A stretch of DNA of 23,038 nt from IMG/VR virus record IMGVR_UViG_3300031963_000968, positions 1-23,038 of that record. One strand, written 5' to 3'. The DNA is from a virus. The notes beneath the pieces were generated by a model. That model was not told the origin of the DNA. It ran no database searches and saw only the letters and a list, made by a program, of their open reading frames with translations. The position numbers and the translations under genes are program-made. Below are positions 14,038 to 20,455 of the stretch, one piece after another. Position 1 is the stretch's first letter, and each line of letters opens with the position of its first letter.

Positions 14038-15294
14038 CTAGACTCCTGATATTACGTCGATAGGCTCCCAGCCATCATCAGCCTCTTCAAAGTAGCTTGT
14101 CACAGCCAACTGGTCGATATAGCTGAGTGCATCTGGCAGATCATCGTGTACCCCTTGCGCGGGAAACATCAGAAGTTGGTCAACAAAGTCGTCCCAATTC
14201 TCTTCGCTGTTTAGCACTATTCTGCCGTGTTCAAACCGGCCTTGCAATGCCCACACGATTCTATCCGTTTTCTTGCGATTTCCGTGAGTTAAATCAACGA
14301 TGTGCGAAAACACGTTGTTTTTCCTCATGAGATCGCTCAAATACGGCAAAACCGCGTTCTTTAGCGCCCCCCGCTCAATTCCGACACTCAATGGCCGGTA
14401 ATCCCGCATCTTGGTCAGAATCTTAGTGGCTGTTTCCCGGATATCCCACCTGCCGTGGTCGATCTCCTGGACGAACCATTTGCCCTCATCCGTGACCTTG
14501 ACTACCGCAATGGCCGACTCATCTAGCCGTTTTTTGGAGTTTGCAGCCTGTTTGGCCACTTCCTCGAAGCCAGCCAGATCCACAGCCACAAAATAAGAGC
14601 CATAAGGCGGTTCTTCGCCATATTTGATCCACTCTTCCTTGAAGACATCCGATCCAGCATTGGAGAAGCTGGCCATGTATTCCTGCTTAAAAGCGAAGCT
14701 GGACAGCGTTTTCTTGGCAGACTCGATCTCGTCCGGATCTATCAGCGGGTTGTCTTTGGTCGTGAAGTGCCAGGACTTCCAATCCTTGTCATCGCCATCC
14801 TGGCCCAGCTTCCACAGGTCGTGAAACCAGTTCCTGCCCTTTGGCGTTCCAATGAAGATAGCCTTGCCCTTCTTGTCGGACAGAGAAGCGCGGATAACCT
14901 GCTCCCAGGCTTGGGGCTTGATGTCTGCAACCTCGTCCAGCACCGCGAACGTCAGAGACACGCCTCGCAGTGTGTCAGGACGATCAGAGCCACGGACGTA
15001 GATTCTGGCCCCGTTTATCAGGGTAATGTCCAGGTTGTTGACGTTGGAGGTCTGGATCACCTCCCTGCCAAGTTCCAGCAGCAAGTCCCAGACAATCTGG
15101 CGCGACTGTCCCATAGTGGGACTAACGTACAGCACCGCTGAACCCTGGGGACACCGCAGCCCCTCGATGATCAGCATGGTAGCGGCCAGCCTGGACTTCC
15201 CACACCTACGGCCAGCAGCGATCACCTTAAAGCGGGTCGGGTCTGCGTAAACCTCTTGCTGCCAGGGCAGTAGTGAGAAGTTCAGGTCACTCAT
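14038..15294 (-). CDS. Terminase large subunit (packaging ATPase and nuclease)
   Basis: A 418-residue packaging motor. Residues 11-14 (WQQE) supply the adenine-binding glutamine. The Walker A motif is GRRCGKS (28-34), Walker B is VLDE (118-121) and the coupling motif is IGTPKG (148-153). The RNase H-like nuclease begins near AVDLAG (Asp 239) and ends with HDDLPDAL (383-390), containing the metal-binding aspartates. Length and motif order are complete, with no frame break. It pumps phage DNA through the portal and cuts it. The gene overlaps the small subunit candidate by eight bases and ends just before the portal ribosome site. Confidence 0.95.
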   Translation of the reverse strand: MSDLNFSLLPWQQEVYADPTRFKVIAAGRRCGKSRLAATMLIIEGLRCPQGSAVLYVSPTMGQSRQIVWDLLLELGREVIQTSNVNNLDITLINGARIYVRGSDRPDTLRGVSLTFAVLDEVADIKPQAWEQVIRASLSDKKGKAIFIGTPKGRNWFHDLWKLGQDGDDKDWKSWHFTTKDNPLIDPDEIESAKKTLSSFAFKQEYMASFSNAGSDVFKEEWIKYGEEPPYGSYFVAVDLAGFEEVAKQAANSKKRLDESAIAVVKVTDEGKWFVQEIDHGRWDIRETATKILTKMRDYRPLSVGIERGALKNAVLPYLSDLMRKNNVFSHIVDLTHGNRKKTDRIVWALQGRFEHGRIVLNSEENWDDFVDQLLMFPAQGVHDDLPDALSYIDQLAVTSYFEEADDGWEPIDVISGV

Positions 15295-15589
15295 ATTTGG
15301 GTTCTACGTCCTCAGCCTCGATGGTTTCACCAACCTGGACACCGATGCCAGAGATGGTGATGTTGACAGCACTACGCTGGGCGCTGGTCTTCTCAAACAG
15401 GCTGACCGGCAACGCTCTTTCCATGCACATCTTAAGTGCAACCATCTGTTGGGGGTGATCGTCGTTCATGGCGATGTCAATGACCTTCTTGACAACAGCC
15501 TCGCCCTTGGACTCCACCAACATCTTCTTTAGCTCTTTGAGCCGCTGGTACTCAGTCTTGGGTAAAACAGCAGGTGTTCTGTAAGCCAT
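15287..15589 (-). CDS. Putative terminase small subunit
   Basis: A 100-residue mostly helical protein (LPKTEYQRLKELKKMLVESKGEAVVKKVIDIAMNDDHPQQMVALKMCMERALPVSLF) with a beta tail (AVNITISGIGVQV). It directly precedes and overlaps the large terminase gene, the classic place of the small subunit, which chooses the packaging site. It lacks an obvious helix-turn-helix, so the assignment rests on position, size and helical core. The ATG at 15589 has no Shine-Dalgarno sequence and lies five bases after a perfect TACAAT -10 element, so the mRNA may be leaderless. Confidence 0.65.
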   Translation of the reverse strand: MAYRTPAVLPKTEYQRLKELKKMLVESKGEAVVKKVIDIAMNDDHPQQMVALKMCMERALPVSLFEKTSAQRSAVNITISGIGVQVGETIEAEDVEPKYE

Positions 15590-15594
15590 AAGCC

Positions 15595-15633
15595 ATTGTA
15601 TAGGAAACTAGCGTTTACGAGAATAGGGTAAAC
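15595..15633 (-). promoter_or_regulatory. Candidate leftward promoter of the virion operon with a TAGGG box
   Basis: On the leftward strand CCTATACAAT stands at 15604-15595 with the -10 hexamer TACAAT at 15600-15595. The expected -35 place (15623-15618) reads TTCTCG, a poor match. Immediately upstream is GTTTACCCTA (15633-15624), the exact reverse complement of the array core TAGGGTAAAC. Its centre lies about 41 bases from the predicted start of transcription, a typical activator place. The distant promoter at 16.49 kb shares CCCTATTC-(15 or 16 bases)-CCTATACAAT. A reverse half GTTTAC lies at 15613-15618. Confidence 0.6.
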
Positions 15634-15988
15634 CATGATATAGTGAGTTCACGGGGGCATGACCCACCCCTCTATGCGGTTGAGCCGACCAAGTAGGATA
15701 AACGTGACGAACTGGGTGAGTTTCTAGTAGCCCCCTGCCAATGTCGTGAGACACCGCAGGTCAGGTGAACGGGGCAACGTAACTCAGGTGCCATCAGGCA
15801 TAGTCTAGATAAACGAGAGGCTCCCTCTTCAAGAGGACTACCCATCTACGGGTCTCTACTCTTTCTCCTCTCTTTTTTTTTAGCAGGCGTTGTCGTCACG
15901 CTGTTAGGCTAAATCCACTTTTTCGGAGGGGGTGGGGCACCACAAAATTTTTACACAGCCGCCCGACCCTCCCCCCCCTATCACACAT
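15634..15988. other. Non-coding stretch between the terminase operon and the repeat array
   Basis: No convincing gene on either strand. It holds one further box-like sequence, TAGGATAAAC at 15694-15703 (9 of 10 with the array core), and an inverted repeat GGGGGC (15653-15658) / GCCCCC (15730-15735). There are small hairpins such as CCTCTTCAAGAGG and ACCCATCTACGGGT near 15825-15855, then a run of nine T at about 15872-15880 and a C/G-rich segment with CCCCCCCC. It could be a packaging or replication-control site near the terminase genes, but no known site type is recognised. Confidence 0.5.
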
Positions 15989-16073
15989 CCGGGCAAACCC
16001 GCACAGGGTAAACCCTCATAGGGTTTCTACTGATAGGGTAAACACTAATAGGGTAAACGATAGTAGGGTAAAC
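15989..16073 (+). repeat. Six-copy direct repeat with an exact 15-bp period (core TAGGGTAAAC)
   Basis: Copies start at 15989 (CCGGGCAAAC), 16004 (CAGGGTAAAC), 16019 (TAGGGTTTCT), 16034, 16049 and 16064 (all TAGGGTAAAC). The five-base linkers differ, while the spacing is exactly 15 every time. The array sits in the control region between the leftward virion operon and the small regulator-like gene. Regular, short, non-coding direct repeats of this kind are either iterons for an initiator protein or a row of operators. The same core occurs once at 15624-15633 in front of the terminase operon. Confidence 0.88.
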
Positions 16074-16121
16074 CCTGATGCAACAGACGCATGAGGTTAT
16101 GCGTAAGATGCATTGTTTCAC

Positions 16122-16388
16122 CTATGAATCAGCGAGGGTGAGGGACGAGGATGGTGCTTTTCCTGTGGACTTCCCAGGGGTCTTGCCCTTGCTTGCCCTT
16201 GTCGGTGTTTCATGTGAAACATTCGAAGCGAAGCGACCATTGAGCGGGTGGATTGACCGCCACAATTCCAGGCATTCGTTGAAGCCTACAGTGATGTCAC
16301 CATCACCGGCATCTAGTAGGATTTCCCTTTGTTCGGGCGTGATTGGCCTGTGGAAAATCCGGGTGTCCTGACGGCATGGTCTGGCCAT
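16122..16388 (-). CDS. Small ribbon-helix-helix-like protein, candidate regulator
   Basis: An 88-residue protein. The N-terminal half, RIFHRPITPEQREILLDAG then DGDITVGFNECLELWRSIH, has the order strand, helix, Gly-containing turn and helix of ribbon-helix-helix DNA-binding proteins. The phrase PEQREILLDAGDGD..GFNECLELW also resembles a recurrent phage family without known role. The second half (FASNVSHETPTRASKGKTPGKSTGKAPSSS) is a flexible basic tail. The gene lies between the 15-bp repeat array and an inverted operator with the same TAGGG core, downstream of a good leftward promoter. A 97-codon frame on the opposite strand is less protein-like. That it binds those repeats is an inference. 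Confidence 0.65.
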   Translation of the reverse strand: MARPCRQDTRIFHRPITPEQREILLDAGDGDITVGFNECLELWRSIHPLNGRFASNVSHETPTRASKGKTPGKSTGKAPSSSLTLADS

Positions 16389-16425
16389 TAGCGTTTGCTC
16401 ACATTGTTGATTGTTCAGGCCCTGG

Positions 16426-16496
16426 ATTCTAAGGGTTTCCCCTAGTGGTCAATTAGGGTTTGTCCCTATTCCCAGGTGTTCAGATGCCTATACAAT
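16426..16496. promoter_or_regulatory. Divergent promoters sharing one TTAGGGT..GTCCCTAT operator
   Basis: The 17-bp box TTAGGGTTTGTCCCTAT lies at 16453-16469. Rightward, CCTATACAAT ends in the -10 element TACAAT at 16491-16496. Leftward, TTGACC (16452-16447) and TAGAAT (16431-16426) make a promoter with a 15-base spacer for the gene at 16122-16388. The box centre (16461) is about 42 bases from both predicted start points. A second inverted repeat, CTAAGGGTTTCCCCTAG (16429-16445), fills the leftward spacer and could be a repressor site. Start points are predicted, not measured. Confidence 0.65.
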
Positions 16497-16542
16497 ACCC
16501 TCATGCCCTAGCACATCGCACGGGGTCTCTTAAGGAAGCATC

Positions 16543-16743
16543 ATGCAAAACATCACCACACTCAGCGCCAAGGCCCTGGCCTATTTCGTCAAGCCTATGG
16601 ACTATGTCACCAATGGTTCGGACATTGGGCGCTACTTTGGCACTACCAAGCGTGGTGTCCATGTTGTCGCCTGGGGTGACAAGCGTGACGATTTTGAGAC
16701 GGCAGAGAAACTGGTCTCTTACCTGGAGCGTCACTCAGCCTAA
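16543..16743 (+). CDS. Small early-type protein, function unknown
   Basis: A 66-residue protein (MQNITTLSAKALAYFVKPMD...SDIGRYFGTTKRGVHVVAWG...ETAEKLVSYLERHSA). It has a helix, a short strand pair and a helix, no membrane span and no cysteine. The ribosome site AAGGAA lies in a leader (GGGGTCTCTTAAGGAAGCATC) almost identical to that of the next gene. It is the first gene after the rightward promoter at 16.49 kb, so it is probably transcribed early. Small first genes of phage early operons often redirect the host; nothing in this sequence shows which target. Confidence 0.65.
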   Translation: MQNITTLSAKALAYFVKPMDYVTNGSDIGRYFGTTKRGVHVVAWGDKRDDFETAEKLVSYLERHSA

Positions 16744-16767: not shown

Positions 16768-16798
16768 TCAATCCCTCAGGGTCTATTAAGGAAACATC

Positions 16799-17074: not shown

Positions 17075-17157
17075 CAGCCTACCCTATAGCATCCACTGGG
17101 TGCTATGTGGTGCGCTGTTGCACTAATGCCCTTCGGGGTCTATTTGGAGCATTTCGT

Positions 17158-19765: not shown

Positions 19766-19791
19766 ATCATAAACACCATAATTCATATGGT
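19766..19791 (-). promoter_or_regulatory. Candidate promoter and inverted repeat before the leftward operon
   Basis: ACCATA-ATTCA-TATGGT (19775-19791) is a perfect inverted repeat that lies just upstream of a -10-like TATGAT (19771-19766) on the leftward strand. The start point would be about 12 bases before the first ATG, just ahead of the ribosome site. No good -35 is seen. The repeat is well placed for a repressor or activator. GGTTCACCC occurs twice nearby (19789-19797 and 19840-19848). Confidence 0.4.
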
Positions 19792-20024
19792 TCACCCAAA
19801 AGACCCCCCTACCCCACAGGTGTGAGGAAGGACGAGTTAGGTTCACCCCCCATTGAAGGGATCGTCATGCTACGGATTAAAACCGTATGCCCCAGGCTTG
19901 ACGATTCGACCAGCCCACCGGATTATTCGGGAACTGCCCCCTAGCCTTTCGGCATACCGGCTACCCTTTTCTTCCACGCCCTCAGGTTGAAGTCTTGCTA
20001 TCGTGTGGAGTACGGATGTCGAGC
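19792..20024. other. Structured non-coding stretch
   Basis: No gene is convincing on either strand. The sequence can fold: ATCGTCA (19861-19867) pairs with TGACGAT (19899-19905) around an inner hairpin TACGG-ATTAAAA-CCGTA (19871-19887), and TAGCC/GGCTA pairs at about 19942-19963. It holds C-rich tracts (CCCCCC at about 19804-19809 and 19846-19851). It may carry the leader of the leftward operon, an untranslated RNA or an origin. I cannot assign it to a known class. Confidence 0.4.
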
Positions 20025-20027
20025 AGA

Positions 20028-20107
20028 AAACAAAAAAGCCGCTTAAGTTCTACCCCCGATCGCGGAACCCCGGGGAAGTTCCGGGGCCGGAGGTAGACTT
20101 AAACGGC
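20028..20107 (-). terminator. Very large leftward terminator hairpin
   Basis: On the leftward strand the arms GCCG.TTAAGT.CTACC (plus 20038-20054 and 20092-20107) pair over about 15 bases with one mismatch and one bulge. An inner stem CGGAAC/GTTCCG (20063-20068, 20078-20083) nests inside. The structure is followed by TTTTTTGTTTT (20037 downward). It ends transcription coming from the Cro-like gene (stop at 20164). At about 70 bases it is much longer than usual, so it could also be a stable small RNA end. Confidence 0.75.
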
Positions 20108-20163
20108 CTTACTTGCTGTCCGCGACGACAACAATTGCAGTGTCTAGGATTTCTGTGGACTTG

Positions 20164-20322
20164 TCAAGCCCCTACAAACCACTCGGGTTTGATGACCATT
20201 AGCTGATAGACGCGGCCCTGTGGCATCTGCTTCCACTGGTTCACTGCGCCCCTGGACACGCCCAGTATCCGCGCCAGTGCAGCCTGCGAACCCGCCCGTT
20301 TGATCGCCTCTTCTTTGGTCAT
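20164..20322 (-). CDS. Cro/YdaS-like helix-turn-helix repressor
   Basis: A 52-residue protein. I start it at the ATG at 20322 (MTKEEAIKRAGSQAALARIL) because the upstream extension looks non-coding and includes the promoter. Residues 12-32, SQAALARILGVSRGAVNQWKQ, form a clear helix-turn-helix: Q..LA..LGVS.GAV..WK is the Cro/YdaS recognition pattern. The C-terminal strand end, QGRVYQLMVIKPEWF, is the dimer arm typical of tiny Cro-like proteins. Upstream lies the palindrome GTACAGTGTAC, overlapping the likely promoter, so it probably controls its own gene and the divergent recombination operon. A large terminator follows. Confidence 0.82.
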   Translation of the reverse strand: MTKEEAIKRAGSQAALARILGVSRGAVNQWKQMPQGRVYQLMVIKPEWFVGA

Positions 20323-20324
20323 CC

Positions 20325-20410
20325 GTACAGTGTACTCTACATTCACTGGCCACGGGTTAGGGTAAGTCCCTATGAAAAAGTCTTGTGTGGCGTTAAGAGA
20401 ACTGTACAAT
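20325..20410. promoter_or_regulatory. Divergent control region of the Cro-like gene and recombination operon
   Basis: Four elements are visible. GTACAGTGTAC (20325-20335) is an exact 11-bp palindrome just upstream of the Cro-like start and overlapping a leftward -10-like TAGAGT (20339-20334). The box TTAGGGTAAGTCCCTAT (20357-20373) matches the box at 16453-16469 in 15 of 17 positions. A rightward promoter has TTGTGT (20383-20388) and TACAAT (20405-20410), spacer 16. A second GTACAG half-site on the opposite strand (20402-20407) overlaps that -10, where a Cro-like protein would block transcription of the recombination genes. Confidence 0.6.
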
Positions 20411-20455
20411 CCACCCCATGCCGCAGCATCCCGCAGCGGTCTTTAAGGAGAGAAG

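Follow-up and report, generated by a model that had tools for sequence, protein, structure and literature searches.

A predicted Cro-type phage regulator and its putative palindromic operator at the terminase and other promoters of an uncultured phage, and their relation to the −35 element

Background

In phage λ, CI bound at OR2 is centred at −42, and activators may also act about one or two helical turns further upstream. CI at OR2 lies close to the −35 of the leaderless PRM promoter, while YdaS represses both PRM and PR of its prophage (PMC8630535). The gp6 protein of GIL01 binds a palindrome centred at −43.5, which overlaps the −35, and activates the late promoter (PMC6182141). The C proteins of restriction-modification systems (C.Csp231I, C.Esp1396I) are made from leaderless genes that are auto-activated through sigma (PMC4824078, PMC4041747), with C.Csp231I using the inverted repeat CTAAG-n5-CTTAG (PMC4824078), and in T4 the MotA element replaces the −35, with the host −10 retained (PMC2988021).

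The DNA analysed here, a 23,038-nucleotide viral record (hereafter the window), encodes a 52-residue helix-turn-helix protein that by its sequence belongs to the P22_Cro family, and which in its predicted action would be most like CI at OR2, GIL01 gp6 and the C proteins. The predicted likeness to CI at OR2 and PRM lies in a helix-turn-helix dimer whose palindrome adjoins a weak −35, a leaderless and autoregulated gene, and an operator overlapping a divergent promoter, but the protein (52 aa in all) lacks a CI-type C-terminal domain, its own promoter has one site rather than three, and a late operon is among the predicted targets. GIL01 gp6 is likewise a small phage helix-turn-helix protein with a palindrome near the same position on a late promoter; however, it is a LexA homologue, works beside host LexA and gp7, and belongs to a temperate phage. 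The C proteins have in common with the candidate the small Cro-like fold, which for the candidate is predicted, the inverted repeat, the leaderless gene and, as we infer here, auto-activation, but they use paired operators for activation followed by repression and control restriction genes, whereas the present setting is a phage, with a single full palindrome at the regulator promoter in place of two adjacent operators. T4 MotA also acts through an element in place of the −35, but it binds as a monomer and requires AsiA, and its box, with the centre at −30, is about 12 bp away from the −10, whereas the palindrome centre described here lies about 30 bp from the start of the −10. P22 Cro and N15 Cro, of the same protein family, are the nearest solved structures, but both are repressors of a lysis/lysogeny switch encoded beside a C2/CI-type gene, and no such gene was noticed among the selected open reading frames of this fragment that were searched against PHROGs and Pfam.

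Results and discussion

Paired sequence blocks at two distant promoters

A megablast search of the window against phage records gave no match, and tblastn of the terminase large subunit (TerL) and the regulator against the same records gave remote matches only, all below 60% identity. Searching bacterial and archaeal genomes with TerL yielded one relative, 55% identical, on an 8-kb contig of a Flavobacteriales metagenome-assembled genome, which is too little to name a host. No paper on these phages or on a TAGGG/CCCTA operator was found in the open-licence literature, and a general scan of the window for sigma-70 promoters and terminators gave no more matches than shuffled sequence.

The preliminary description of the window reported two sequence blocks, 16 and 15 bases apart, in front of the terminase operon and of the gene at 16543. 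Both pairs were recovered, as CCCTATTC-N16-CCTATACAAT at 15628-15595 (minus strand, promoter P1) and as CCCTATTC-N15-CCTATACAAT at 16464-16496 (plus strand, promoter P2), and these are the only two exact matches in the 23,038-base record, compared with none in 100 dinucleotide-preserving shuffles. The elements of the two promoters are as follows.

15287-15589, minus strand: gene in the TerS position (100 aa, from the list of open reading frames), leading the terminase/portal/capsid operon
15595-15602, minus strand: P1 −10 element TATACAAT (hexamer TACAAT at 15600-15595)
15624-15637, minus strand: putative P1 operator CATGGTTTACCCTA, centred 30.5 bp before the −10
16454-16468, plus strand: P2 operator TAGGGTTTGTCCCTA, centred 30 bp before the −10 (about −42), conserved, 18.2 bits with the matrix described below
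16489-16496, plus strand: P2 −10 element TATACAAT (hexamer TACAAT at 16491-16496)
16502-16528, plus strand: leader hairpin CATGCC...GGTCT, at the 5′ end of the P2 transcript

The ATG of the TerS-position gene coincides with the predicted transcript start (leaderless), with a −10 located 5-7 nt upstream in all distinct relatives, and the gene that follows encodes the terminase large subunit. Neither promoter has a good −35, as had been described, with a best match of 3/6 at P1 (TTCTCG, N17) and 4/6 at P2 (TTCCCA, N16). The proposed link between early and late genes is borne out only in part: P1 heads the terminase/late operon, but the genes behind P2 have no assigned function.

A looser pattern (CCCTATT-N15/18-CTATACAAT) was used to scan IMG/VR and gave 78 stretches. 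Some of these appear to be chance matches in unrelated sequence, and the others form a coherent group of relatives that have the site at P1 or P2. Among 13 related records (fragments), each match to the looser form was single-copy and located at the P1 or P2 promoter, and a reversed control pattern gave none, so that within these fragments the refuting case named in the preliminary description, a crowd of equal matches in coding regions, does not arise. The blocks are kept in these relatives and the DNA between them is variable.

The upstream block is half of a palindrome, the putative operator

The CCCTATTC block is not a separate element but half of a palindrome, TAGGG-N4/5-CCCTA, which the preliminary description did not include, nor did it include the likely regulator gene 3.7 kb away or the further sites. 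The palindrome is centred 30-30.5 bp before the −10 at P1 and P2, about −42. The block had been placed at −41 or −42; counted from the leaderless ATG it lies at about −37, and it is the full palindrome that has its centre at −41.5 (P1) and −42 (P2). At P2 the CCCTATT block forms the right half of TAGGGTTTGTCCCTA, while the P1 operator has one perfect half (CCCTA) and one degenerate half (CATGG), with TATCATGGTTTACCC being nearly invariant across 10 distinct P1 sequences. The left half at P1 is likely weak because it overlaps TGATAnnnT, an extended −10 facing the opposite way, and the P1 site is assigned, as a putative operator, from one half-site combined with conservation and spacing.

A half-site matrix was trained on the cro-promoter sites of 25 other phages alone and run over the window, with 40 shuffled windows as control. 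The sites at 20358 and 16454 ranked first and second in the window, both with 18.2 bits, whereas no shuffled window exceeded 14.9; they were followed by a site at 16430 (14.6 bits) and then a unit of an upstream array, while the P1 site was not recovered (6.7 bits, about rank 27).

16004-16077, plus strand: array of five operator-like units (TAGGGTAAAC...) with 15-bp spacing
16430-16444, plus strand: second operator-like site TAAGGGTTTCCCCTA upstream of P2, 14.6 bits

In three relatives (L044, L056 and L078), other repeats (CACTAACTT/GTGAGC-type) are found upstream of the terminase gene where the window has its TAGGGTAAAC units, which suggests lineage-specific binding proteins. Between the array and P1, at about 15912-15985, lies a G-run (GGGGGGGAGGG, minus strand) with a conserved CGAAAAAG block, which is also present upstream of the terminase gene in distant relatives and is a candidate cos/pac site.

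A 52-residue protein of the P22_Cro family is the candidate regulator

The best-scoring palindrome lies between a small gene on the minus strand and the divergent operon for a Sak annealing protein (20456 onward).

20167-20322, minus strand: candidate regulator gene for a 52-aa P22_Cro-family helix-turn-helix protein, predicted to be leaderless (Pfam, profile search and structural model)
20329-20334, minus strand: Pcro −10 TACACT, six bases before the ATG
20358-20372, no strand assigned: operator TAGGGTAAGTCCCTA, 31 bp from the regulator −10 and 40 bp from the P3 −10
20405-20410, plus strand: P3 −10 TACAAT of the Sak/exonuclease operon

The protein scored 43.4 bits (E 3e-11) against Pfam P22_Cro (PF14549), well above the family cut-off of 30.2, and a profile search matched P22 Cro (1rzs) with an E-value of 1.2e-7. 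A structural model made with an alignment had a pLDDT of 90, and the nine best Foldseek rows were all Cro proteins, with probabilities of 0.99-1.00 but E-values of about 0.1-0.3; N15 Cro (Z 6.8, rmsd 2.6 over 51 residues) and P22 Cro (Z 6.2) were matched at a level where the fold alone is not decisive. Folding from the single sequence gave no useful structural match.

Relatives of the regulator were collected from 80 viral loci (64-100% identical). A TAnnnT −10 was found exactly six bases before the ATG in 34 of the 35 distinct upstream sequences scored, and with this fixed distance the regulator transcript is probably leaderless. Nearly all distinct upstream sequences also contain the TAGG(G)-N4/5-CCCTA palindrome (at −43 before the leaderless gene in the window), and a palindrome kept so constantly in front of the gene for a regulator commonly points to autoregulation. 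The regulator gene was found in records with a P2-type site, including the otherwise different phages L101, L124 and L147; in two fragments (L016 and L018) the P2 operator was present and the regulator gene was not seen. The region between the regulator and the replication genes (19780-20160) is a long gap lacking good reading frames and containing strong inverted repeats.

Operator position and the −35 hexamer across relatives

Operator position was compared with the −35 hexamer across relatives, which are metagenomic fragments, many of them near-identical, so that the counts below refer to distinct sequences rather than to independent samples, with no tree applied. Transcript starts were inferred from the −10-to-ATG distance, with +1 set either at the ATG of a leaderless gene or 7 nt downstream of the −10, and the identity of the host sigma factor, as well as its requirement for a −35, is assumed.

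At P1, the 12 distinct sequences with the operator have a best −35 of 2-3/6, and their CCC(T/C)A is placed exactly 22 bp ahead of the −10, whereas 12 of the 15 without it have a −35 of 4-6/6, ten of these being TTGACA or TTGACC (Fisher p 4e-5); where the −35 is TTGACA, 19 bases separate it from TACAAT, or 17 when TATACA is taken as the hexamer. At P2, the operator is centred 29-30 bp before the −10 in 24 distinct sequences, with a −35 of at most 4/6, while in six others it is centred at 41.0 bp and all have TTGACA-N16. In one relative (L159), GCAAATACCTGTTGACAT replaces TTCCCAG of the window, with the same operator and a nearly identical downstream part, and the eleven extra bases both supply the −35 and shift the operator by one helical turn. 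Pcro follows the same pattern, with the palindrome 30-34 bp from the leaderless −10 and a chance-level −35 (2-4/6) in 31 of 34 distinct sequences, and at 41.0 bp with TAGACA-N16 in the other three. Taking the three promoters together, a −35 of at least 5/6 was present in 9/9 sequences with the site at 41 bp and in 0/67 with the site at 29-34 bp (p 7e-12), or about 3 versus 17 (p 9e-4) when collapsed by hand to separate contexts. An exception is P3 in the window, where the operator is 40 bp away and yet the −35 is weak (TTGTGT).

The operator centres of −41.5 (P1), −42 (P2) and −43 (Pcro) agree with the position near −41.5 typical of a class-II-type activator site, and in the comparison a weak or absent −35 is compensated by such a site. 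A close operator occurs where the −35 is lacking, and a moved or lost operator where the −35 is present, which a substitute activator explains and a repressor does not, and for this reason activation is the preferred reading. On these grounds the promoters are probably switched on by the Cro-type protein rather than repressed, and we likewise consider it probable that the operator is bound by the phage's own protein, which would activate its own gene, P2 and P1. The activator-dependent, phage-specific promoter class proposed in the preliminary description is thus favoured by the mutual exclusion and the quantised spacings, with activation itself deduced from these patterns.

It is unlikely, although by no means negligible, that the same protein instead acts as a repressor, keeping Pcro, P2 and P1 shut until late infection. 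The known P22_Cro and YdaS-type proteins are repressors and the candidate belongs with P22_Cro/YdaS, RNA polymerase could be impeded by a dimer covering −34 to −49, and the spacing at Pcro (30-34 bp) is looser than at P1 and P2. Repression leaves unexplained, however, why a close operator goes with a missing −35 and TTGACA appears where the operator is lost or shifted, as well as the exact 41.0 bp of the shifted operator, a position where a small repressor would hardly be expected to obstruct RNA polymerase. Much less probable is recognition of the TAGGG/CCCTA palindrome by a host regulator or another phage protein, with the Cro-type gene as just one target: the Cro-type protein is only the predicted binder and some contigs have the P2 operator and not the gene, but the almost constant palindrome before this one gene in nearly all of about 34 distinct relatives is a mark of autoregulation. 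Least probable of all are ordinary promoters with upstream likeness due to chance or functionless shared descent, as, despite the strong and conserved −10 (TATACAAT) and the many bacterial promoters that lack a good −35, this reading conflicts with the shuffle result (0/100), the variable spacer between conserved blocks, the ranking by the matrix from other phages, and the coincidence of operator loss with −35 gain at P1.

Under the activation model, CCCTATT would be a half-site for the phage's own 52-residue P22_Cro-type helix-turn-helix protein, a dimer of which would sit about 42 bp ahead of the transcript start, next to the contact that sigma region 4 would make with a −35, and most likely stand in for the missing hexamer. 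The predicted targets are the regulator's own leaderless gene, giving positive feedback, P2, and the leaderless P1 of the terminase/late operon.

A divergent promoter and a conserved structured RNA next to the terminase operon

The left half of the P1 operator overlaps a promoter reading in the opposite direction (P1'), and the region to its right is strongly conserved with no convincing reading frame.

15636-15644, plus strand: extended −10 TGATATAGT of P1'
15649-15848, plus strand: conserved structured RNA of about 200 nt downstream of P1'

Close P1 variants retain the TGATAnnnT sequence whether or not they have the operator, with the exception of L278. An alignment of eleven relatives gave a 52-pair consensus structure, in which seven pairs are changed on both sides; 27 double-change cells were counted, compared with a shuffle mean of 8.8 (0/500 shuffles as high), and the signal was destroyed by sliding the partners. 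The structure is clear only from the alignment, as single-sequence folding of 15645-15900 gave no better a result than shuffled sequence (z −0.48), and the RNA had no match in Rfam 15 even at E 10. A covariance model detected distant copies at L147:10905-10729 (minus strand, 1.6e-21) and L070:5634-5463 (minus strand, 2.8e-12), and in L147 the RNA divergently adjoins a very different terminase gene. Given the neighbouring genes, a role in packaging is an obvious guess.

At L147:10900-10930, terminase and RNA appear to be transcribed in opposite directions from one near-palindromic −10 (AGTATACT), and the leaderless terminase ATG is six bases from it. Other clades (L014, L053, L018 and L034) have different, apparently structured RNA modules right after the P1' −10, and the type in L014 and L053 has a terminal stem followed by TTTTTT.

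If bound at the P1 operator, a dimer would lie over the extended −10 of P1', and the late genes and the RNA are therefore likely to be expressed in opposition, with the structured RNA off when the late genes are on. Taken as a whole, the scheme is tentative, and we regard it as possible rather than probable: a 52-residue Cro-fold protein with no further domain would activate, with positive feedback, the late genes of a widespread group of uncultured phages, one dimer would turn the terminase operon on and the divergent, terminase-linked structured RNA off, and operator and −35 hexamer would be interchangeable modules, the operator lying either about 30 or about 41 bp ahead of the −10, a difference of one helical turn. 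If correct, this would mean that the transcription programme of phages known only from metagenomes, including regulator, site, targets and late switch, can be predicted from sequence, and that a Cro-type protein can act as an activator. The relatives also form a natural experiment in which activator site and −35 are swapped at fixed spacings, which bears on how activator dependence is gained and lost, and the analysis suggests a new structured RNA in the neighbourhood of the packaging genes.

Other features of the P2 region

Between the array and P2, TGTTTCATGTGAAACA is located at 16206-16221, within the 3′ part of an 88-aa open reading frame (16388-16122, minus strand), and relatives have at this position exactly the canonical chromosomal parS TGTTTCACGTGAAACA (for example L014:237-252). 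No paper on a canonical parS in such a phage was found in the open-licence literature, and the carriage of a host-type ParB site by a phage would be unusual. Leader hairpins are found just before the ribosome binding sites of several genes (16502-16528, near 16782, near 17139 and 20417-20442), those at promoters having the form CATGCC-stem-GGTCT, and this kind of leader occurs in 43 distinct versions in relatives, with the stems complementary.
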